Assembly: GCA_905181955.1 (NCBI GenBank)
Contig: CAJJAC010000007.1
Span: 62,001-126,000, forward strand
Direction of reading: 5' to 3'
From: SAR86 cluster bacterium SAR86B
Lineage (GTDB): Bacteria > Pseudomonadota > Gammaproteobacteria > Magnimaribacterales > D2472
DNA: 64,000 nucleotides
Both the position numbers and the translations under genes were made by a program. How positions within the stretch are numbered: position 1 is the stretch's first letter; every line of letters begins with the position of its first letter. The notes under the pieces were generated by a model. It worked only from the letters and a program-made list of their open reading frames with translations, was not told the origin of the DNA and made no database searches. Below are positions 44,719 to 58,663 of this stretch, one piece after another.

Positions 44719-45843
44719 ATGAATTGGGAAGTAGTCGATCAAGATAGTCAGCAAGCCAAAATTAAAGTGATCGGAGTTGGGGGAGCTGGAGGCAATGCAG
44801 TTATTCATATGATCAATCATGATATTCAAGGTGTTGATTTTATTTGTGCTAATACTGATACGCAGGCACTTTCTAGAGCTGATGGCGCAATATCACTTAA
44901 ATTAGGCAGGAATCTTACAAAAGGTCTAGGAGCCGGAGCAAACCCTGAGGTCGGTCGTCAAGCAGCAGAGGGAGATAGAGAGGCTATTCAAGAGCTCTTA
45001 GGTGATGCAGACATGATCTTTATTACAGCTGGCATGGGTGGAGGCACTGGAACTGGTGCAGCTCCTGTAATTGCATCTATTGCTAAAGAAATGGGCGCAC
45101 TAACCGTTGCTGTTGTAACAAAACCATTTAAATTTGAAGGCAAAAGAAGAATGACTGCAGCCGAACAAGGCTTAGCAGCTCTAGTTGAAGAAGTGGATAG
45201 CTTGATTACAATCCCGAATCAAAGACTCATTGAAGTTCTTGGTGGAAATACAACTATGACAGATGCATTCGCCAGAGCAGATGATGTCTTAAAAGGTGCC
45301 GTGCAAGGCATATCAGATATCATTATGAAAGATGGATTAATTAATGTTGACTTTAATGATGTTAGAACTGTAATGTCTGAAAAGGGCATAGCTATGATGG
45401 GAACAGGAAGATCTAGCGGAAAAGATAGAGCTTCTGAAGCAGCCTCTCAAGCAGTAGGCAGTGAATTACTTGAAGATATAGATTTAAAAGATGCGCGAGG
45501 TGTTCTGGTTAATATTACTGGTAAAGAGCCCACCCTAAATGATTACGAAGAAGTGAGTAATATTGTTGAAGAATTTACCGCTGAAGATGCTTATGTTATT
45601 TATGGGACTGTAATAGATAAAGATATTGGTGATGACTTATTAGTAACTATTGTTGCTACAGGTGTTAATCAAAAAGCTCCAAGCCTAGCTGTAGATAATA
45701 GAAGAAGCGCTTCTATTCGATTAAATCCTGTTGGCCTAGATAAAGAAATTCAAATTAAAACAAGTCAAGAAGTTGGCACATCGTCTGCAGAGGGATTAGA
45801 TTTCCTCGATGTGCCTACTTTTATGCGAAAACAAGTAGACTAA
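44719..45843 (+). CDS. ftsZ: Cell division GTPase FtsZ
   Basis: FtsZ is the tubulin-like GTPase of the division ring. The 374 residues include IGVGGAGGNAVIHMI, the signature GGGTGTGAAP, the T7-loop region and a C-terminal conserved peptide LDVPTFMRKQVD, which binds FtsA and ZipA. The linker before the peptide is short. It has a good ribosome-binding site (AAGGGGAT). Its place between mraZ and rsmH is abnormal: it normally ends the cluster after ftsA, where no ftsZ is found here. Confidence 0.97.
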   Translation: MNWEVVDQDSQQAKIKVIGVGGAGGNAVIHMINHDIQGVDFICANTDTQALSRADGAISLKLGRNLTKGLGAGANPEVGRQAAEGDREAIQELLGDADMIFITAGMGGGTGTGAAPVIASIAKEMGALTVAVVTKPFKFEGKRRMTAAEQGLAALVEEVDSLITIPNQRLIEVLGGNTTMTDAFARADDVLKGAVQGISDIIMKDGLINVDFNDVRTVMSEKGIAMMGTGRSSGKDRASEAASQAVGSELLEDIDLKDARGVLVNITGKEPTLNDYEEVSNIVEEFTAEDAYVIYGTVIDKDIGDDLLVTIVATGVNQKAPSLAVDNRRSASIRLNPVGLDKEIQIKTSQEVGTSSAEGLDFLDVPTFMRKQVD

Positions 45844-47007: not shown

Positions 47008-48635
47008 TGAAGAAATTAAATTATTTTAATTGGCGATTTTTTCTTATTATAATTTTTTTAATTGCTTCTATTGTAGCAATTTTTACTCGAGTTATTTATC
47101 TCCAGATAGATAAGGAAAATTTTTTAAAAAATTGGGGCCAAAATCAACATATTGCTTATAGGGAAGTTCCATCTATCAGAGGAACTATATATGATCGAAA
47201 TAATATACCTCTAGCAATCTCATTAACGCACTATGATTTATATGCTTTAAGAAATTTTAGTGAAAATGATTATAAGAAGTTAAAAAATATAATAAGTATT
47301 AATACTTCCTTTAACGAAATTAGTTTAAAAAATAAGAAAATACTAATTCAAAAGAGTTTGTCACCTGAAGATATAAATTTAATTAAAGATTCTTCTTTAA
47401 AGCATTATGAAATTGAAATTAGGTTCTCAAGACATTACCCCCTTGCAGATCAAATTGCGCCTTTAGTTGGCTTTTCCGGTAAAGATAATTATGGCCTTGA
47501 GGGGATTGAGAAAAGTTATAACTCTTTTTTATCCGGAAAGGATGGCAAGGAACAATATTATAAAAATAGAAAAGGTGAAATTATTTCAAAAGCTATTAGC
47601 ATTCATGCTCAAGAGCCAGGACATGACTTGCATTTAACCATTGATAGTAATATTCAATTTTTTGCTTATAAAAAACTAGCTGAAGCAATAGAGGAAACTA
47701 AAGCTAAAAGCGGTACTGCTATTGTTTTAGACAACTCAAGTGGCGAAATATTAGCAATGGCTAGCTATCCTTCATATAACCCAAATAATCCAAACAGAAA
47801 GCCTCAAAAAAATAGGGCATTGCTTGATAAATATGAGCCTGGATCTGTTTTAAAACCGATCGCTTTAGCTAAAGCCATTGATATGGAATTAATTGATATA
47901 ACAGATCCCCTCGATACCTCGCCTGGATATATTTCTTTAAATAATTACTCTATCAGTGACTACAAGAATCATGGAGTTTTAAAAGCATATGAAATTATTA
48001 CTAATTCTAGTCAAGTTGGTGCTTCCAAAATTGCTTTAATGTTAGGTGCAGATAACATTGTCACAACATATAAAGAATTTGGTTTTAGTAAGCCAATTAA
48101 TATTAATTTTCCATCACCAACCTTTGGACAAATAAATAATAGAGAGAATATGTCAGATATAGAAATTGCTAATCTTGGATTTGGATATGGTCTTGATGCC
48201 AGCCCATTTCAGATTGCTTCAGCTTTTGCCGTTTTTGCAAATGAGGGTGTCTATAAAGAATTTTCTTTAGTAATGAATGATGAATATATGTATGAAAAGC
48301 AAGTAATATCTGAAGAGACGGCTGATAAAATACTATTTGCTTTAAAAGATGTTATTGAAAATGGATCAGGACGAAAAGCAAAAGTACCAGGATTTGATAT
48401 AGGTGGTAAAACTGGTACTTCACACAAGAGTGTTAAGGGAGGAGGTTACGCAAAAAGTATATATACAGCTTCATTTGCAGGTATAGCACCCTTAGGAAGC
48501 AAAGATCTCACTATTTTTGTTTCTATTTATCAACCTGGTTTAAATGCATATACAGGTGGAGAAATAGCAGCACCTTTGTTTGCTAAAATTGCTTCTGATA
48601 CGCTTAATTATTTAGGATATTTTGAGAGTGAATAA
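47007..48635 (+). CDS. ftsI: Septal penicillin-binding protein 3 (FtsI)
   Basis: FtsI is the septum-specific transpeptidase. The 542-residue protein has a membrane helix (about 11-31), the pedestal domain (REVPSIRGTIYDRNNIPLA) and a transpeptidase domain with Ser280-x-x-Lys283 (PGSVLKP) and KTGT at 468-471. The second active-site motif, normally Ser-x-Asn, reads Ser334-Ser335-Gln336 within TNSSQVGASKIAL. Spacing from the active Ser (54 residues) is normal, so the motif assignment is secure. It overlaps murE by 14 nt if murE starts at TTG 48622. Confidence 0.95.
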   Translation: MKKLNYFNWRFFLIIIFLIASIVAIFTRVIYLQIDKENFLKNWGQNQHIAYREVPSIRGTIYDRNNIPLAISLTHYDLYALRNFSENDYKKLKNIISINTSFNEISLKNKKILIQKSLSPEDINLIKDSSLKHYEIEIRFSRHYPLADQIAPLVGFSGKDNYGLEGIEKSYNSFLSGKDGKEQYYKNRKGEIISKAISIHAQEPGHDLHLTIDSNIQFFAYKKLAEAIEETKAKSGTAIVLDNSSGEILAMASYPSYNPNNPNRKPQKNRALLDKYEPGSVLKPIALAKAIDMELIDITDPLDTSPGYISLNNYSISDYKNHGVLKAYEIITNSSQVGASKIALMLGADNIVTTYKEFGFSKPININFPSPTFGQINNRENMSDIEIANLGFGYGLDASPFQIASAFAVFANEGVYKEFSLVMNDEYMYEKQVISEETADKILFALKDVIENGSGRKAKVPGFDIGGKTGTSHKSVKGGGYAKSIYTASFAGIAPLGSKDLTIFVSIYQPGLNAYTGGEIAAPLFAKIASDTLNYLGYFESE

Positions 48636-50106
48636 ATTAGAGAAAATATTAGGGGTACCTTTTCCTAATAAGACGATTATTATCAATGCAACGAATACAA
48701 CAAATAAAGTAAAAAAGAATTCAATTTTTTTTGGTCTTCAAGGTACCCAAGTACATGGCAGTAAATATATAGAAAAAGCACTGGATTTAGGTGCGTCAAT
48801 TGCTGTTCATGATGACCCTAATTTTAAATCTAATCTAAAAAATATTTTTTATGTAAAGAATATTGCGAAATCTCAAAATGATTCTTTTAAAAGTAGTAAA
48901 TTATTTTTCTTTTTAGAAGAACTCTCAGGCATGAAAGATAAGAATTTTATTATTCATGCTTTTACTGGAACTAATGGAAAGACATCATCAGCTTTTCTTT
49001 GTCATCAGCTAATAAGAAAACAAAGAATAAAAAAAGACTCTCTTTATATAGGAACTCTTGGAACTCAGTTTAATGAGGAAATAATAAATCAATCCATAAG
49101 TTTAAAAACCACTCCAGATTTATTTGAATATTTTGAAATTCTAAAATTTTATAATCTTAAAGATGATACGAACATTTGTATTGAAATATCATCCCATGCT
49201 CTAGATCAAAAAAGATTATTTGACATTAGATCAATGGCCTCATCTGCTCTTCTTAATATTGGAAAAGATCATCTTGATTACCATAAGAACATAAGTGCAT
49301 ATAGAGATACTAAATTTCAGATATTTAATCAAATTACCTTAATTAATCTTATTGATGATGAGCTTAAGCCTTCTGCTGTTAAGCGAGGAGTGCAGTCATT
49401 AATTTCAATAAGTAATAAAAATGAATTATCAAATATCTTCTATAAAATTATTGAATCAAGTATTCAAAAAACAATATTTGAAATAACTACAGATAAAAGT
49501 TTTGATGGTATGAGGAGGAAATATAAATTTTCCTGTTTGTTATTTCCGGAATTCAACATAAATAATCTTGTTTTTGCAATTTCATCTATATATAAAGGAT
49601 ATGATGAATTTTCAGAACACAAAGTTAATGATCTATCTTACTTAAAGCTTCCAAGAGGCAGATCAGAACTTATCAATGATTTACCTAAAAATATAATAAT
49701 AGATTATGCTCATAATCCAGATAGTTTTAAGTTATTCCTGTCATCAATAAAAAATTATTTTAATAATTTAGTAATAGTTTTTGGGTGTGGAGGCGAGAGA
49801 GATAAACTAAAAAGACCTGAAATGTTAAAAATAGCTACTGAAAATAGTAATCAAGTAATTTTTACTTCTGATAACTCACGAAGTGAAAGTTTTTATGATA
49901 TTTTCAAGGATGCATCTAATGGAAATAAAATAGATGATGTCCTTGCTATTGAGGACAGAAAGGATGCAATAATTTATGCAAGCACTTTAATAGGTGATAA
50001 TGATTGCTTGGTAATTCTTGGAAAAGGGCACGAGGAAACGCAGGAAATAGATGGAAAGATAATACGTTTTAGTGACCATGAGGTAATAAATGAAATTTAT
50101 AAGTAG
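48622..50106 (+). CDS. murE: UDP-MurNAc-tripeptide synthetase MurE
   Basis: MurE adds the third stem-peptide residue, meso-diaminopimelate in Gram-negative bacteria. The 494 residues contain the P-loop TGTNGKTSS, EISSHALDQKR, the carbamylated-Lys region (YRDTKFQIF) and the C-terminal DYAHNPDSF. The amino-acid selectivity motif is DNSR (417-420) instead of the usual meso-DAP DNPR. The Arg that recognises DAP is kept. The start could be TTG 48622 or GTG 48628; AGGA at 48614 suits either. It overlaps ftsI and murF. Confidence 0.93.
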   Translation: MRVNKLEKILGVPFPNKTIIINATNTTNKVKKNSIFFGLQGTQVHGSKYIEKALDLGASIAVHDDPNFKSNLKNIFYVKNIAKSQNDSFKSSKLFFFLEELSGMKDKNFIIHAFTGTNGKTSSAFLCHQLIRKQRIKKDSLYIGTLGTQFNEEIINQSISLKTTPDLFEYFEILKFYNLKDDTNICIEISSHALDQKRLFDIRSMASSALLNIGKDHLDYHKNISAYRDTKFQIFNQITLINLIDDELKPSAVKRGVQSLISISNKNELSNIFYKIIESSIQKTIFEITTDKSFDGMRRKYKFSCLLFPEFNINNLVFAISSIYKGYDEFSEHKVNDLSYLKLPRGRSELINDLPKNIIIDYAHNPDSFKLFLSSIKNYFNNLVIVFGCGGERDKLKRPEMLKIATENSNQVIFTSDNSRSESFYDIFKDASNGNKIDDVLAIEDRKDAIIYASTLIGDNDCLVILGKGHEETQEIDGKIIRFSDHEVINEIYK

Positions 50107-51448
50107 TTCAGAGGATTTGTCTAAATATCTAGAAATTTCAATAAAGAAAAGTATAGAAATAAAAAGTATTTCCACTGACACAAGGACATTAAATAAAGGC
50201 TCTCTATTTATAGCGATTAAAGGAGAATTTTTTGATGGTAACAATCATATTGATGAAGCTATAAAAAAAGGCGCCTCTCTAATTATTTCAGATAGTAAAG
50301 AATATCTGGATTCTAAGAATAAAAGAATTATTTATGTTAAAAATTCAGTTCTTGCCCTGAAAAAAATCGCTAAAAATATAATTAAAGAATATCAAGGTAA
50401 TATTATTGGAATTACTGGAAGTAATGGTAAAACGACCACAACTCAGTTAATTACAAATTCTATCAAGAGAAGCTCAAGTACGCTTAAAAACTTTAATAAT
50501 GAAATTGGTATGCCATTAAGCATAATTCATGCCAACCCTAAATCTAAAACTTTAGTAATTGAGATGGGAGCATCAAAACCAAAAGATATTCATTATTTAA
50601 GTTCAGTTTTAAAGCCTAGTATTGGAGTCATAACTAATATAGGTAATTCACATCTAAAAAATTTAATAAATATTAAAGGAGTCCTTAAAGTTAAGTCAGA
50701 ATTAGTTTCTAACATAAAAAAGAATGGCTATTTAGTTGTTCCTAGTGAGAATTCAACTCACTTAAAATTTTGGCGCAAAATAAGAAATGATATTCATATT
50801 ATGACTTTTGGGCTTAAATCAGATGCAGATTTTTATCCTAAAAATATTAGGAGTTATTCAAATAAAATAGAGTTTAATATTTGCTCTAAAAAATATAACT
50901 TAAATATTAAAATTTCTACAACTCTATTAGGAGATCATAATATTAAGAATATTTTAGCTACCTTTGCTGTAGGTTTTTGTATTAATAATCCAATTGGTTC
51001 TTTCTTAAGAGGGCTGGAAAAGTCATCGGTTAATCACTTGAGACAAAAACAATCCAAATGGATTAAGGGATCTTTGCTGATTGATGATACTTATAATGCA
51101 AATCCTGAATCTGTTAAAAAATCTATAGATCTAATTAAGAATTTTAATAAGAAAAGAGCTGTTTTTATTTTGGGTGACATGAAAGAACTCGGTAGATTTA
51201 GAAAGAAACTTCATAAGGAAGTTGGTACTTATGCAAAAAGTCATAAAGTAGGTTTATTTATAGGTTTTGGAAACTTAACTCGCTTTTCTGTAAGTGCATT
51301 TGGTAAAAATGGCTTTTTCTTTAGTGATAAAGAACAATTGAACGAATTTTTAGTTAATAATATTAAAAAAGAAGATTTAGTAATTCTAAAAGGTTCAAGG
51401 GGAATGCGAATGGAACAATTCATAAATACTCATAGAGGAAATATATAG
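50090..51448 (+). CDS. murF: UDP-MurNAc-tripeptide D-Ala-D-Ala ligase MurF
   Basis: MurF attaches D-Ala-D-Ala to finish the pentapeptide precursor. The 452 residues show the Mur-ligase P-loop GITGSNGKTTT, IEMGASKPKDI, NIGNSHLKN and the C-terminal DDTYNANPESVKKSI block. It overlaps murE by 17 nt and its stop touches the mraY ATG. Confidence 0.94.
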   Translation: MKFISSSEDLSKYLEISIKKSIEIKSISTDTRTLNKGSLFIAIKGEFFDGNNHIDEAIKKGASLIISDSKEYLDSKNKRIIYVKNSVLALKKIAKNIIKEYQGNIIGITGSNGKTTTTQLITNSIKRSSSTLKNFNNEIGMPLSIIHANPKSKTLVIEMGASKPKDIHYLSSVLKPSIGVITNIGNSHLKNLINIKGVLKVKSELVSNIKKNGYLVVPSENSTHLKFWRKIRNDIHIMTFGLKSDADFYPKNIRSYSNKIEFNICSKKYNLNIKISTTLLGDHNIKNILATFAVGFCINNPIGSFLRGLEKSSVNHLRQKQSKWIKGSLLIDDTYNANPESVKKSIDLIKNFNKKRAVFILGDMKELGRFRKKLHKEVGTYAKSHKVGLFIGFGNLTRFSVSAFGKNGFFFSDKEQLNEFLVNNIKKEDLVILKGSRGMRMEQFINTHRGNI

Positions 51449-52534
51449 ATGTTTGAGTATCTAGGAACAGTTTTAGTTGGAGTAGACCCGGGTTTCGATG
51501 TATTAAGATATATAACTGTTAGAACTATAGGTGGAACTGTAACAGCGCTTCTTATATCGATCTTACTTGGTCCTTTTGTTATTAATCTTTTAAAAAGACT
51601 TCAGTTTGAACAACATGTTCGAATAGATGGACCTAAAAGTCACTATAAAAAAACTGGAACACCAACCATGGGAGGATTACTAATAATCCTTTCTCTTCTT
51701 ATCTCAACCTTGCTTTGGGCAGATTTAGGAAATAGATATATTTGGGTAGTTCTTTTTGTAACTATTACGTTTGGTTTTGTAGGATTTTTAGATGATTATC
51801 TTAAAATTAAGTCAAAGAGTTCAGACGGCCTAACAGGTAAACAAAAAATCATTCTCCAAACATCATTTGCATTTATTGCAACTGCATTCCTATACTTTTC
51901 AGCTGAAGCGTCTGCTGAAACATCATTTATTGTTCCCTTTTACAAAGATCTTTTAATTAGCATGAGCCCATTTCTTTTCATATTTTTAGGGTCTTTTGTT
52001 GTTGTTGGTTCTTCAAATGCTGTAAACCTGACTGATGGCTTAGATGGATTGGCAATTATGCCTACAATTCTTATAGGTGGCGCTTTGGGTCTAATTGCTT
52101 ATGGAATGGGGAATGTTCTGATTGCAGATTATTTATATTTACCTCATCTTAAGATATCTGGTGAACTAGTGGTATTTTGTGGAGCACTGGTTGGTTCTGG
52201 TATTGGCTTTCTTTGGTACAACACTTATCCGGCACAAATTTTTATGGGTGATGTTGGTTCTTTAACTCTTGGTGCTGCGCTTGGAATAATTGCAGTCATA
52301 CTAAGACATGAATTAGTTTTTGCCATAATGGCAGGAGTTTTTGTAATGGAAACCCTAAGTGTAGCGATTCAGGTCATATCATTTAAATTAAGAGGCAAAA
52401 GAGTGTTTCTTATGGCGCCAATTCACCATCACTTTGAATTAAAAGGCTGGGAAGAGCCAAAAATAATAGTTAGGTTCTGGATAATAACAATCATTTTAAT
52501 ATTAGTTGCATTGGCAACATTAAAAATTAGATAA
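51449..52534 (+). CDS. mraY: Phospho-MurNAc-pentapeptide transferase MraY
   Basis: MraY transfers phospho-MurNAc-pentapeptide to undecaprenyl phosphate, making lipid I. The 361-residue, roughly ten-helix membrane protein has the catalytic [19 protein letters not shown], a [10 protein letters not shown] loop and the [13 protein letters not shown] His motif. All are intact, and length is identical or nearly so to homologues. Confidence 0.97.
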
Positions 52535-52546
52535 AGATCTTATTTT

Positions 52547-53605
52547 GTGAAGTCTTTAATATATGGCTACGGAATTACTGGCAAATCAATTGAAAGATAT
52601 CTAATAAGAAATAATATCGATTATCAGATATTTGATGACAACAAAGACCTCTATACTTCAGATTACTTCACCAACGACTTAGAAAATAATTGGGATGTAA
52701 TATATTGCAGCCCAGGAATCAGTAAAAAAGATTTTAAAAAGTTACAGTCTATTGCTTCTATAGAAGTTTTAACTGATATAGACATTTTTTTTCAAGAAGA
52801 TACCTCTATTAAAATTGGCATAACTGGAACTAACAGAAAAAGTACAACTTGTTTCCACTTATATCAGCTATTAAACAAAAACTATTCTGTAAATTTAATT
52901 GGTAATATTGGAGAGCCTGTTCTTGATTACATTAATAGTGGTGTAGATTTTTCGGTTATAGAACTATCAAGTCAGCAATTGGATAAATTTAAAGAAAATA
53001 AACTTGATTACGGAGTTTTATTAAACATAGCCCCAGATCATATTGATTATCATGGAAGCTTTGATGAATATAAGTATGCAAAAGAAAGAATATTGGATGC
53101 AAAAGAAATTTCTTATGAAAATAATCCTTTCGAGCTATTTAAATGGATTACTGGCAAAGATGTAGAACCAAGTGATTTAAATAATTTACCTTTTAGATTT
53201 GAGATGATTACAGAATCTATAATTAATGACTCTAAATCAACCAATATGCATTCACTAGATTATGCAATTGATAAGGCGAATATTTATTTTAAATGCAGCA
53301 AATATCATTTAATTATCTGTGGAAACCCAGTAAAAGAAGGCTTTAATAACTTTCATCCTGAGGGTCCTGACACTATCTTCATTTTTGGTGCACATGTCGA
53401 TGAAATTAATAAATGTATTATTCATTCAAATAAACAGCTTTTTAAAAATTTAGATGATGTCCTAATACATATTTTAAATAACTATGAATCTCAGAATATT
53501 CTATTTTCACCAGGCTATCCGAGTGGAGATGATTTTAAAAATTTTGAAGAAAGAGGAGAATATTTTAATAAGTTGATTCAAGAAATATTGTTATATGATT
53601 TATAG
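52547..53605 (+). CDS. murD: Divergent, shortened UDP-MurNAc-L-alanine--D-glutamate ligase MurD
   Basis: MurD adds D-Glu to UDP-MurNAc-L-Ala. Family traits are clear: N-terminal Rossmann-like domain (YGYGITGKS), GITGTN-KST P-loop, DHIDYHGSFDEYKYAKERI with the carbamylatable Lys, INDSKSTN, and FKNFEERGEYF. Oddities: the P-loop Gly is Arg97 (codon AGA, one base from GGA); about 60 residues of the central domain between AKERI and LPFRFE are missing, including the HN-x-x-N block; PHRFE is PFRFE; the DGK Lys region is altered. At 352 residues it is about 85 shorter than E. coli MurD. The frame is uninterrupted and the neighbours are standard. Confidence 0.82.
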   Translation: MKSLIYGYGITGKSIERYLIRNNIDYQIFDDNKDLYTSDYFTNDLENNWDVIYCSPGISKKDFKKLQSIASIEVLTDIDIFFQEDTSIKIGITGTNRKSTTCFHLYQLLNKNYSVNLIGNIGEPVLDYINSGVDFSVIELSSQQLDKFKENKLDYGVLLNIAPDHIDYHGSFDEYKYAKERILDAKEISYENNPFELFKWITGKDVEPSDLNNLPFRFEMITESIINDSKSTNMHSLDYAIDKANIYFKCSKYHLIICGNPVKEGFNNFHPEGPDTIFIFGAHVDEINKCIIHSNKQLFKNLDDVLIHILNNYESQNILFSPGYPSGDDFKNFEERGEYFNKLIQEILLYDL

Positions 53606-54695
53606 AAATAATATTTTTCTTTCAATTTCCTTAGTAGGATTAATTACTCTTGGCTTGATAATGGTCACATCTTCAAGTATCTATATTGCAGATAACTTAA
53701 CAGGCAATCCTTTCCATTTTGCAACGAGGCAGGCTTTATTTATTGGAGTTGGTATTTTTATATTTACAGCCTTTCTTTTAATTCCCTCCTCCTTTTTAGA
53801 AAAAACAGACTGGCTTTTTTTGCTCATAAGCATATTACTTCTGGTTGCTTTATTTATTCCTGGTATTGGTACTGAGGTAAATGGGAGCATTAGGTGGATA
53901 AGATTAGGACCAATTAATATCCAACCTGCTGAAGTTTGTAAATTTAGTATGATTTTATATACATCTGGATATTGTGTTCGAAGAATGGGAGAAATAAGTA
54001 CACTAAGAGGTTTTCTTAAACCTTTAATGTTATTAGGCCTTGTGTCTTTTCTGATCTTATCGCAGCCAGACCTTGGAACAACAGCAATTATATGCGCTGT
54101 AGTAGTAGCAATCTTATTTTTTGCTGGCATATCTTTTTTTCAATTTGGGTTACTGATTCTATTAATAGGCGCACTAGGATTTATTGCCATTTACTTCACT
54201 CCGTTTAGACTGACAAGAGTTATGTCATTTATGGATCCATTTTTAGTCCAACAAGGTGCCGGATGGCAACTAAGTAATTCTTTGATAGGTATAGGGCAAG
54301 CAAACTGGATAGGGCTGGGGCTGGGTAATAGTTTTCAAAAAAATCTTTTTCTGCCAGAAGCTCATACAGACTTTATTTTTGCTGTCCTCGTTGAAGAATT
54401 AGGAATATTTGGAGTTATTTTATTAATTTCACTATATTCACTTATGATTTTTGCCATCTTTTCAACCGCTATTCAATCTTTAGCCTTAAAGAGGTTTTTT
54501 CAGGGTTTTGTAGCCTTCGGTATTGGTTTTTTAATCTCAATTCAAGCTCTTTTTAATTTAGCAGTAAATATAGGCCTTCTTCCAACAAAAGGTTTAACAT
54601 TACCCTTTATAAGCTATGGAGGAACTAGCATTATTATAATGATGTCCTTTATTGCTATAGTTTTAAGAATTAATAATGAAAATAAGTTTTATTAG
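53595..54695 (+). CDS. ftsW: Septal peptidoglycan glycosyltransferase FtsW
   Basis: FtsW is the SEDS-family polymerase working with FtsI at the septum. The 366-residue protein has about ten membrane helices and the SEDS motifs GSIRWIRLGPINIQPAEVCKF (with the conserved Arg and Glu), SQPDLGTTAII, the AHTDFIFAVLVEELG loop carrying the catalytic-site Asp, and GLTLPFISYGGTS. It overlaps the end of murD by 11 nt. Confidence 0.95.
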   Translation: MIYRNNIFLSISLVGLITLGLIMVTSSSIYIADNLTGNPFHFATRQALFIGVGIFIFTAFLLIPSSFLEKTDWLFLLISILLLVALFIPGIGTEVNGSIRWIRLGPINIQPAEVCKFSMILYTSGYCVRRMGEISTLRGFLKPLMLLGLVSFLILSQPDLGTTAIICAVVVAILFFAGISFFQFGLLILLIGALGFIAIYFTPFRLTRVMSFMDPFLVQQGAGWQLSNSLIGIGQANWIGLGLGNSFQKNLFLPEAHTDFIFAVLVEELGIFGVILLISLYSLMIFAIFSTAIQSLALKRFFQGFVAFGIGFLISIQALFNLAVNIGLLPTKGLTLPFISYGGTSIIIMMSFIAIVLRINNENKFY

Positions 54696-54698
54696 TAT

Positions 54699-55745
54699 AT
54701 GAAAATTTTAATTGCTGCTGCTAAGACAGGCGGACATATTTATCCAGCAGTATCAGTTGGAAGTGAGCTTATTAATGGCGGTCATAATGTTATTTTTCTA
54801 GGTTCAAATAGTCTTCTTGAAAAAAATGCTATTAAGAATGTTCCTGAAATTCAATATGAATCAATATCAATGAAAGGTTTTAGAGGGAATGGTTTAGTAA
54901 ATAAGATGCTGGTTTTACTAAAACTTCCCATAAATATTTTCAGACTATTAAGTATTATAAAAATCAATAAAGTTGATTCTGTAATTGTTTTTGGTGGCTT
55001 TATAACTATTCCTGTTTCTTTAGCAGCACTTATTCTTTTTAAGCCCATATATGTTCATGAGCAAAATACAGTTTTAGGTTCAGCTAACAAGCTATCTGCA
55101 AAGATTGCTAAGAAAATTTTTTTAGGCATGCCACTTCATCATAATCAGATAAAAAGATCAGAAGTTGTTGGCAATCCAATTCGCAGTTCATTTATACCCT
55201 CATTACAAAAGCCAGACGATGAAAATATTAAAATATATATAACTGGAGGAAGCCAGGGAGCAAAGTATCTCAATGATAATCTTCCTATAATTTTAAAAAA
55301 CACTAATTATTCAATATCTATCAGACATCAATGCGGCAAAGACAAAAAAGAAGATGTGGTTAAACTATACGAGGATTGTAATAATGTTGAAATAGAGGAA
55401 TTTTTTGATAATCCAAATTTACTGATTGATTGGTCTGATTTTGTAATCTCTAGGTCTGGTGCATTAAGCCTATCAGAGACAATTTCAATGAAGAAAGGCT
55501 TGCTGATGATACCTTTGCCTAATGCTATAGACAATCATCAGTTATTTAATGCTAAATATATTGAAAAAAATGGCATGGGACTAATTCATGAGCAACAAAA
55601 TGGAATTGAGGATCTTGAGAAAAAAATTAACTCTATTTTAGAAGATAAAAAATACCTAACTTGGCAACAAATGAATTCAGAAACTAATCATAACGAGGCT
55701 GCAAAGAATATTGTTTCTTCAATCTTAAACAAGAATATTTTATGA
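54699..55745 (+). CDS. murG: UDP-GlcNAc:lipid I N-acetylglucosaminyltransferase MurG
   Basis: MurG makes lipid II on the cytoplasmic face. The 348 residues have the GT-B fold: N-terminal AAKTGGHIYPAVSV with the conserved His, GNPIRSSF, ITGGSQGAKYLN, and the nucleotide-binding C-terminal ISRSGALSLSETISMKKG plus PLPNAIDNHQLFNA. The first glycine pair of the canonical GGTGGH motif is Ala-Lys here, a mild divergence. It overlaps murC by 4 nt. Confidence 0.95.
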   Translation: MKILIAAAKTGGHIYPAVSVGSELINGGHNVIFLGSNSLLEKNAIKNVPEIQYESISMKGFRGNGLVNKMLVLLKLPINIFRLLSIIKINKVDSVIVFGGFITIPVSLAALILFKPIYVHEQNTVLGSANKLSAKIAKKIFLGMPLHHNQIKRSEVVGNPIRSSFIPSLQKPDDENIKIYITGGSQGAKYLNDNLPIILKNTNYSISIRHQCGKDKKEDVVKLYEDCNNVEIEEFFDNPNLLIDWSDFVISRSGALSLSETISMKKGLLMIPLPNAIDNHQLFNAKYIEKNGMGLIHEQQNGIEDLEKKINSILEDKKYLTWQQMNSETNHNEAAKNIVSSILNKNIL

Positions 55746-57133
55746 ACCCTCTAAAGAAAATTAAACATATACATTTTGTTGGCATTGGAGGCTCAGGGAT
55801 GATTGGTATTGCCTATTTACTTTTAAGAAAAGGCTATAAAGTAAGTGGATCAGATATAAACAAATCAAAACCTCTTAGTGATCTAAGAAAAATAGGGGCA
55901 AAAGTTTCTTATACGCATAACGAAAAAAACCTTGGAAAAGCTGATTTAGTAGTAATGTCATCTGCAATTAAGACCTCTAATCCAGAATATAGAAGCGCAA
56001 AAAGAAAAGGTATTACTATCATTCCAAGAGCCCAAATGTTGGGAAGTTTAATGAGAGGTTATGAGAGCATAGCTATAGCAGGAAGTCATGGAAAGACAAC
56101 TACAACCAGCATGATTGCAAATATATTTAGTGAAGCTCTATTGAGTCCTACATATATTGTAGGTGGAAAAGTTTTAGGAATAGGTAAAAATTCAGAACTA
56201 GGAAGTGGAAATTATCTAATAGCTGAAGCAGATGAAAGCGATGGTTCTTTTTTACATCTTCAGCCAGATGTTGGAGTATTTACAAACATCGATAATGATC
56301 ATCTAAGTTATTACGATAACGATATGGATAAATTGTTAAATTCTTTCCAGATGTTTGCAGAAAATATTCCTTTTTATGGCGCACTAATTATCAATGGAGA
56401 TGATAAAAATGTAAGAAAAGTTGCAAAGAGAATTTCAAGAAGACAAATTTCGTTTGGATTTTTTGCAGCAAGTGATTATCAGATATCTAATGCTACTTAT
56501 AAAAATAATTACCAAAGTTTTAATTTAGCTGACCATATTGAGAAAAAGAATTACCTATTTAGTTTGCCAATGCCTGGAAAACATAATTTGTACAATGCTG
56601 CGGCAGCTATTGCTGCAAGTATCGAAGAAGGCATTCCAATAAAATCTATACAACAAGGCCTTAAGAATTTTAAAGGTGTCTCAAGAAGATTTGAAAAACA
56701 CGAAATAAAGATTAATAAAAAGAAAATAATTTTAATAGATGATTATGGGCATCATCCAGAAGAAATAAGATCAACAATTAATGCAATTCAACAAGCATTT
56801 CCAAAGAAAAAGATTTGTATGATATTTCAGCCACATAGATATACAAGAACCGCTCAACTTTATAATGATTTTATTGATGTTTTATCTATGCCAGATTCAC
56901 TTTTATTATTTAATATTTATCCAGCAAGCGAGGTCCCTATAAAAGGGATATCCTCAAAAACGCTTCTAGAAAGTATTAAGCAAAAAGGAAAACTTAATGC
57001 GAGCCTTACCTCTGATAAATCAATATTAAATGATATTAAAAACTCATCTGCTGATTTTGATATTCTGGTTACCCAAGGAGCTGGCAGTATTTCATCTATT
57101 TGTGAAGCAATACAGAAGAAATGGCAGAAATAA
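55742..57133 (+). CDS. murC: UDP-MurNAc--L-alanine ligase MurC
   Basis: MurC adds the first L-Ala to UDP-MurNAc. The 463-residue protein has GIGGSGMIGIAYLL, the P-loop AGSHGKTTTTSM, EADESDGSFL, TNIDNDHLSYY, and the C-terminal DDYGHHPEEIRSTI with FQPHRYTRT. Everything expected is present, in contrast to the altered MurD. It overlaps ddl by 13 nt. Confidence 0.96.
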   Translation: MNPLKKIKHIHFVGIGGSGMIGIAYLLLRKGYKVSGSDINKSKPLSDLRKIGAKVSYTHNEKNLGKADLVVMSSAIKTSNPEYRSAKRKGITIIPRAQMLGSLMRGYESIAIAGSHGKTTTTSMIANIFSEALLSPTYIVGGKVLGIGKNSELGSGNYLIAEADESDGSFLHLQPDVGVFTNIDNDHLSYYDNDMDKLLNSFQMFAENIPFYGALIINGDDKNVRKVAKRISRRQISFGFFAASDYQISNATYKNNYQSFNLADHIEKKNYLFSLPMPGKHNLYNAAAAIAASIEEGIPIKSIQQGLKNFKGVSRRFEKHEIKINKKKIILIDDYGHHPEEIRSTINAIQQAFPKKKICMIFQPHRYTRTAQLYNDFIDVLSMPDSLLLFNIYPASEVPIKGISSKTLLESIKQKGKLNASLTSDKSILNDIKNSSADFDILVTQGAGSISSICEAIQKKWQK

Positions 57134-58047
57134 AAAAAATTATAGTTCTTTATGGAGGAGCATCTTCAGAAAGAGAGGTCTCTCTTAATAGTGGAGAAGG
57201 AATATATAAAGCTCTCTTAGATTTAGGTTACTCAGTTAGCTTAAAAGACTTCAATGATGTTGATAAATTAGAATATTTGAAAGAGTTTGATTTAGTTTTT
57301 ATAGCTCTTCATGGGTTTGAAGGCGAATCAGGCGACTTGCAAAAAAGTCTAGACAGTCTTGGTATTTTATATACAGGTTCAAACTACTTAGCATGCAAAA
57401 ATACATGGAATAAAACTAATTTTAAAAATATTTTAAAATCTGTACCCATTTCTACCCCCAGAGGATTTTCTGTAGAAAACATTCATTTTGACATGCAATC
57501 TCCTTTTGATATTTTTAATACAAAGCATGATTCAGATATTAAAAAATTATTCTTAAAACCAGAAGAGGATGGCTCAAGTATAGATATTTTTGAAATTAAT
57601 TCTGATACGGATCTTGTAAATTCTATTAAAAATGCACAAATTCCAAATAGAGCTTTTATTTTTGAAGAATCTATTAAACATAGAGAATATACAGTCTCTA
57701 TTATCAATGGTAAGTGCCTTCCAATAATTGAAATTAAGACTAGTAATAGTTTTTATGACTATGATGCAAAATATATTTCAGATAATACTCAATTGCTCGA
57801 GGTAGAGCTTGATCAATCAACTAAAAAAGAAATTAATAATTTATCTTTACAAGCTTTTAATAAATTGGGCTGCTCAAATTGGGGGAGAGTAGATATTCTT
57901 GAGGATGCAATTGGAAATTTTTATGTTTTGGAAATTAATACTGTTCCTGGTATGACTTCTCATAGTTGTGTGCCCAGATCTGCTGAATTAGCTGGCATTT
58001 CTTATAAAGAGCTAGTTCAATTAATAATTAAAGATGTTCAGATTTAA
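57121..58047 (+). CDS. ddl: D-alanine--D-alanine ligase
   Basis: Ddl joins two D-Ala for MurF. The 308-residue ATP-grasp protein shows LYGGASSEREVSLNSG, ALHGFEGESGDLQ, a KPEEDGSS ATP-binding strand and the C-terminal EINTVPGMTSHSCVP. Some motif residues depart from consensus: HGFEGESG for HGxxGEDG, and Asp after GSSI where Gly is usual. These are substitutions around an intact fold. It lies between murC and ftsQ as in the ddlB position and overlaps ftsQ by 14 nt. Confidence 0.93.
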   Translation: MAEIKKIIVLYGGASSEREVSLNSGEGIYKALLDLGYSVSLKDFNDVDKLEYLKEFDLVFIALHGFEGESGDLQKSLDSLGILYTGSNYLACKNTWNKTNFKNILKSVPISTPRGFSVENIHFDMQSPFDIFNTKHDSDIKKLFLKPEEDGSSIDIFEINSDTDLVNSIKNAQIPNRAFIFEESIKHREYTVSIINGKCLPIIEIKTSNSFYDYDAKYISDNTQLLEVELDQSTKKEINNLSLQAFNKLGCSNWGRVDILEDAIGNFYVLEINTVPGMTSHSCVPRSAELAGISYKELVQLIIKDVQI

Positions 58048-58663
58048 ATTCCTATTTTTAGTAACTTTTTTAATAATTTTGACCTCCTGTAGTAAATCTA
58101 AAAATATTGAGATAATTTTTGAAGATAACTTTATGTATAAAGCTCAAAAAGAATTAATATTTGAATTAAAGCTTGTAAATACGAAGAAAGATATAAAAAA
58201 TATTTTACTAAATCAAGACTGGATTGAGGATTTTAAAATTAATTTTAGAATCAACGGAAATGTAAGAATAATTATTAATACCAAGATACCAATTTTTATC
58301 TGGAATGAAAAATATTATATTGATAACAATATGGAGACATTTAATTTTGATAAAACAAATAATCAGTTAATAAAAGTTTTTTGTCCGAGTAATCAGCTAA
58401 ATGACGCAATGAATCTAATTGATTTTATTAATACTAAAATTAAATCAGAGCAAAATAAATTTACAAAACTTGATTTTAAATATTCATCTGGATGGATACT
58501 AGTTTCTAAAAATAATACAGAAATAAAATTTGGAAAAGTTATATCAAAAGATAGGTTAAATTCTTTTAAACAAAGCTTAAATTATGTATACGAAAGTAAC
58601 TCCATACCTAGTATGATAGATCTAAGATACAAGGATGGGGTAGCATTAAATTATGGCAAATAA
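58034..58663 (+). CDS. ftsQ: FtsQ-like division protein with a lipoprotein-type N-terminus
   Basis: FtsQ anchors the FtsQLB complex with a periplasmic POTRA domain. Position between ddl and ftsA, a basic start and one hydrophobic segment, a POTRA-like region (NILLNQDWIEDFKINFRIN; IPIFIWNEKYYIDNN) and the C-terminal IDLRYKDGVALNYG support the call. The protein is short (209 residues) and divergent. The hydrophobic segment ends ILTSC (Cys19) followed by SKSKN, a canonical lipobox, so the protein may be lipidated rather than held by a membrane helix. Confidence 0.8.
   Translation: MFRFKFLFLVTFLIILTSCSKSKNIEIIFEDNFMYKAQKELIFELKLVNTKKDIKNILLNQDWIEDFKINFRINGNVRIIINTKIPIFIWNEKYYIDNNMETFNFDKTNNQLIKVFCPSNQLNDAMNLIDFINTKIKSEQNKFTKLDFKYSSGWILVSKNNTEIKFGKVISKDRLNSFKQSLNYVYESNSIPSMIDLRYKDGVALNYGK

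Follow-up and report, generated by a model that had tools for sequence, protein, structure and literature searches.

The window examined here, a stretch of 64,000 nucleotides from the genome of SAR86 cluster bacterium SAR86B, contains a short form of murD. We put at roughly 85% the probability that this gene is the working murD of the organism and encodes a ligase for D-glutamate (D-Glu) whose ATPase domain is minimal. This reading is based on homology, the order of the genes, conserved residues, purifying selection and the fact that no second MurD was found, and from these we infer catalytic activity, D-Glu specificity and the mode of nucleotide binding. MurD is a much-studied antibacterial target for which many crystal structures exist; no description of a short MurD was found in the literature searched. 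An abundant marine lineage relies on a version that lacks the helix in contact with adenine and, in many cases, the P-loop glycine. This shows what the Mur ATPase domain can do without, and the short MurDs represent a natural experiment in nucleotide recognition and in the shrinkage of enzymes in streamlined genomes. The gene and its parts are as follows (window coordinates; E. coli residues in parentheses).

52547-53605, + strand: murD, short form, 352 aa, GTG start (open reading frame, best NCBIfam match TIGR01087, fold matches)
52547-52807, + strand: N-terminal UDP-binding domain, residues 1-87, shortened; Gly9, Thr11 and Asp30 retained, E. coli Thr36-Arg37 (uracil loop) replaced
52823-52843, + strand: P-loop TGTNRKS, residues 93-99
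52835-52837, + strand: Arg97 codon AGA, at the P-loop glycine site (Gly114)
52961-53083, + strand: Mg/catalytic block with Glu139 (E157), Asn160 (N178), Asp164 (D182), His165 (H183) and Lys179 (carbamoyl-K198), invariant in 36/36 sequences
53093-53185, + strand: shortened linker, residues 183-213, replacing the missing strand, three-stranded sheet and HNxxN helix; lowest conservation within the short form
53186-53602, + strand: C-terminal D-Glu domain, residues 214-352; better-modelled part of the AlphaFold2 model

Residues kept and lost in the short MurD

The reading frame is uninterrupted from 52547 to 53605 and lies in the standard position of murD, between mraY and ftsW. Its best NCBIfam match was TIGR01087 (murD) with 182.8 bits (E = 1.2e-53), obtained in two pieces. 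This is under the cut-off of 211.95, and the shortfall falls on the deleted stretch; Pfam Mur_ligase_M aligned only over positions 1-112 of its 200. The short MurD matches 16 families altogether, TIGR01081 (Mpl) not being among them, and its relatives at 41-76% identity are SAR86 or gammaproteobacterial metagenome-assembled genomes and single-cell genomes. Two AlphaFold2 runs, based on alignments of only 9 and 8 sequences, gave a mean predicted local distance difference test (pLDDT) of 64.8 and 66.1 with a poorly modelled central domain. When the first of these low-confidence models was used for fold comparison, the top 30 matches were all MurD (Z 15.4-18.3), followed by other Mur ligases at 12.8 or less. 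This ranking supports the identity of the protein as MurD, not the structure of the reduced domain.

With E. coli MurD (438 aa; 1UAG, 2UAG, 2JFG) the short form shares the gene position, the three-domain plan and the catalytic, Mg and Glu-site residues including the carbamoyl-lysine site. The main difference lies in the central domain, where the interval between Lys198 and Arg302 (Lys179 and Arg217 in the short MurD) comprises 37 residues rather than 103. In the E. coli enzyme the 66 residues lost form the NADD strand, a side sheet of three strands and the HNxxN helix, a secondary structure taken from general knowledge of that protein and from a published description of the Mur central domain (PMC6085368). 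Residues H267, N268 and N271 have no equivalent in short MurDs. The initial annotation had recognised a loss of about 60 residues including HNxxN, but its view that this block helps to hold substrate has to be corrected. Residues of the HNxxN type touch adenine in Mpl and MurT (PMC3060825, PMC6085368), and the block contacts the adenine of ATP, not the peptide substrate. Shortening also affects the N-terminal domain, by approximately 15-20 residues. A change from PHRFE to PFRFE, also pointed out earlier, is real; Phe in place of His301 occurs in long MurDs of SAR86 as well. The DGK loop, annotated as altered, is remodelled from GGDGK to CGNPVK; its lysine (K348) is nonetheless kept as the invariant Lys263, shifted by one position. 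The remaining sites of the C-terminal domain are Arg217 (R302), Asp228 (D317), Lys230 (K319), Thr232 (T321), Ser326 (S415), Phe333 (F422) and Arg336 (R425). A third adenine contact, Asn178 of E. coli, is retained in what we take, by our own residue count, to be Asn160.

The P-loop had been described as broken, Thr-Asn-Arg97-Lys-Ser standing in place of a sequence with glycine. The substitution itself was confirmed, as GTNRKS does not meet the consensus GxNGK[ST]; non-standard decoding of AGA was ruled out because the same codon specifies the invariant Arg217 and Arg336. "Broken" is nevertheless too strong a term. For the study of conservation we aligned 36 complete short copies from two families, f1, to which SAR86B belongs and whose genera are designated g1 to g10, and f4. 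Lys98 and Ser99 were invariant in all of them, while residue 97 alternated by genus between Arg (14 sequences; g1, g2, g5 and g6), Lys (5; g7), Ala (a single f4 sequence) and Gly (16; elsewhere). Residues other than Gly were found at this site in short forms only.

The following 15 functional residues of E. coli MurD were matched in 36/36 copies: K115, S116, N138, E157, Q162, D182, H183, K198, R302, D317, K319, T321, S415, F422 and R425. Thus the Glu-site residues D182, K319, T321, K348 (shifted by one), S415 and F422 are all invariant. One side observation concerns the INDSKSTN motif, in which a single sequence (L007 / L067) has Phe for Ser, the sole departure at that site in the 36 short forms. 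Nei-Gojobori (NG86) omega values for unsaturated within-genus pairs were approximately 0.07-0.17 and close to those of long SAR86 MurDs; pairs with saturated dS were uninformative. The frame was open throughout the matches listed, except in two poor copies (G001 and G200). The short MurD is under purifying selection and is not decaying. Together with the operon slot, the invariant catalytic residues and the single MurD per genome, this supports the earlier suggestion that MurD chemistry works here in a minimal form.

The part that has disappeared is the edge of the central domain, made up of a parallel strand, the side sheet of three strands and the adenine-contacting HNxxN helix. With these elements gone, the nucleotide is probably held mainly via its phosphates and the metal. 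That the P-loop glycine can be exchanged for Arg, Lys or Ala may belong to this rearranged nucleotide site. It is conceivable, if doubtful, that short MurDs, with no normal adenine pocket and a basic P-loop residue, have a relaxed nucleoside triphosphate specificity or use a different phosphate donor and so represent a naturally reduced Mur ATPase domain.

Distribution of the short form within SAR86

MurD was sought in 61 genomes and, by profile, in 203 genomes sampled from the order, which yielded about 100 short-form matches. The short form occurred in g1-g7 and g9, that is in 8 of the 10 genera of f1, and in family f4. Long MurDs were found in families f2 and f3 and in g8 and g10. They share the operon slot and gene order with the short form and differ from it in their frames of 403-449 aa, in the P-loop glycine (23/23) and in the frequent presence of Asn271 (19/23). 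Full-length MurD with GTNGKS, which in close relatives would have pointed to an error or a pseudogene, was absent from the sister genera; full-length proteins occurred only in more distant SAR86 genera.

An assembly or sequencing artefact, or a pseudogene confined to one strain, can practically be dismissed, since the short form is common to many genomes. Dozens of independent genomes share the same length and linker, as do named single-cell assemblies of SAR86, and Arg97 is present in 14 sequences from four genera. The only observation in favour of such an explanation is the copy of G001 (L009 / L068:5001-6026) with three stops and foreign-looking internal stretches; this copy is itself probably an assembly fault.

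The Lys198-Arg302 spacing decreases stepwise, from 91-105 residues in f2 and g10 to 75 in g8, 64-66 in f3 and 37-46 in the short forms. When the deleted stretch was left out, a MurD tree placed all short forms in one clade (SH-aLRT 100) on a long stem of 1.22 changes per site. We read the contraction as a change that arose in the ancestor of one SAR86 sub-clade. Other SAR86 lineages have lost less of this stretch; the losses in f3 and g8 suggest that it was eroded more than once. A tree based on MraY and FtsW grouped f1 with g8 and g10 and left f4 outside. Either the short MurD of f4 was acquired by transfer, or the tree places f4 wrongly.

Beyond SAR86 no short MurD was encountered among 369 genomes sampled from the class, where only three genomes, all of them SAR86, matched the short profile at E<=1e-60. 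When 249 genomes of the phylum were sampled, 124 gave a match to this profile at E<=1e-22; outside SAR86, almost every matching frame was 438 aa or longer. Three shorter frames (291, 358 and 381 aa) were present in this sample, two of them no more than about 450 bases from the end of a contig. No relative of the short MurD was found on viral contigs.

D-glutamate supply and alternative functions

The host genome (1.29 Mb, completeness 88.8%) contained five Mur-ligase middle domains, belonging to MurC, MurD, MurE, MurF and Mpl. A second MurD was not found there or in the SAR86 genomes searched, which possess one MurD each. It had been suggested that another enzyme adds D-Glu and that this MurD is decaying or structural. 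Such a non-catalytic protein, with D-Glu addition by another enzyme or a cell living on recycled tripeptide through Mpl, might explain why 66 residues and the P-loop glycine are missing, and Mpl is indeed encoded by a separate gene (G000:C10), while glutamate racemase went undetected. However, Mpl, a MurC-like member of the Mur ligase superfamily that, unlike the short MurD, attaches recycled tripeptide, only reuses ready-made stem peptide and cannot start synthesis. MurE, which depends on the MurD product, is kept. Purifying selection and catalytic residues that are invariant, though needless in a structural protein, also argue against this explanation, and besides MurD only MurC, MurE, MurF and Mpl were found. 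We therefore regard it as very unlikely.

As regards the supply of D-Glu, glutamate racemase (MurI, PF01177) gave no match over the cut-off in 61 SAR86 genomes; a weak match in the host genome (G000:C1:134643-134846) was rejected because it is PanB. A transaminase candidate had TIGR01121 (D-amino-acid transaminase) as its best NCBIfam match, with 184.7 bits under a cut-off of 277.45. It adjoins a D-alanyl-D-alanine carboxypeptidase-like gene, an identity assigned from the sequence. Relatives of the transaminase candidate occur in most f1, f2 and f3 genomes. In family f4 neither MurI nor the transaminase candidate was detected. Each of its eight genomes (G042, G045, G039, G048, G051, G054, G057 and G060; loci among L097-L107), including two single-contig genomes, encoded a single Aminotran_4 protein of 302-321 aa, the size of IlvE. 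A separate observation in the same families is that FolC (TIGR01499) was present in 15 of 16 f2 and f3 genomes and in 0 of 45 f1 and f4 genomes sampled.

These gaps would fit the Xanthomonas arrangement, in which a ligase of the MurD2 type attaches L-Glu and an epimerase of the MurL type acts afterwards. MurD2 has the Mur ligase fold in common with the short MurD, and position 414 (literature numbering, PMC8788868) is Pro in 34/36 short forms, as in MurD2. The D-/L-Glu switch is, however, controlled by Asp182 and Lys348 in MurD as opposed to Glu and Arg in MurD2 (PMC8788868), and the short MurDs invariably retain Asp and Lys (Asp164 and Lys263). Moreover, the D-amino-acid-type transaminase candidate is present in most f1 genomes. 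Judged from the ligase residues and the transaminase candidate, an L-Glu ligase seems improbable.

Several observations nevertheless weigh against a working D-Glu ligase. MurI was undetected in SAR86, and f4 lacked the transaminase candidate as well. Residues other than glycine are uncommon immediately ahead of the P-loop lysine, and such a residue should interfere with the binding of phosphate. The poor modelling of the central domain leaves a P-loop ATPase fold of the reduced domain unsupported by the models. Finally, the stem of the short clade is long, so conservation alone leaves a change of function possible.

The murD locus

The genes surrounding murD in the window are:

48622-51448, + strand: murE and murF, with ordinary P-loops GTNGKT and GSNGKT
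51449-52534, + strand: mraY, adjoining murD upstream, as in 59/59 SAR86 loci compared
53595-54695, + strand: ftsW, downstream of murD and overlapping its end, present in 58/59 loci
55742-57133, + strand: murC, with the ordinary P-loop GSHGKT

The one locus without ftsW is a record that ends just downstream of murD. As the initial annotation stated, the neighbouring ligases are intact, MurE, MurF and MurC possessing every Mur domain. Compared with E. coli, the order of the dcw cluster is standard: ftsI, murE, murF, mraY, murD, ftsW, murG, murC, ddl, ftsQ, ftsA. ftsZ (44719-45843) is found where the cluster begins, flanked by mraZ and rsmH, and not after ftsA. FtsQ (58034-58663) is short, with 209 aa, and diverged, showing a weak match to NF008043 (E = 2.5e-7).
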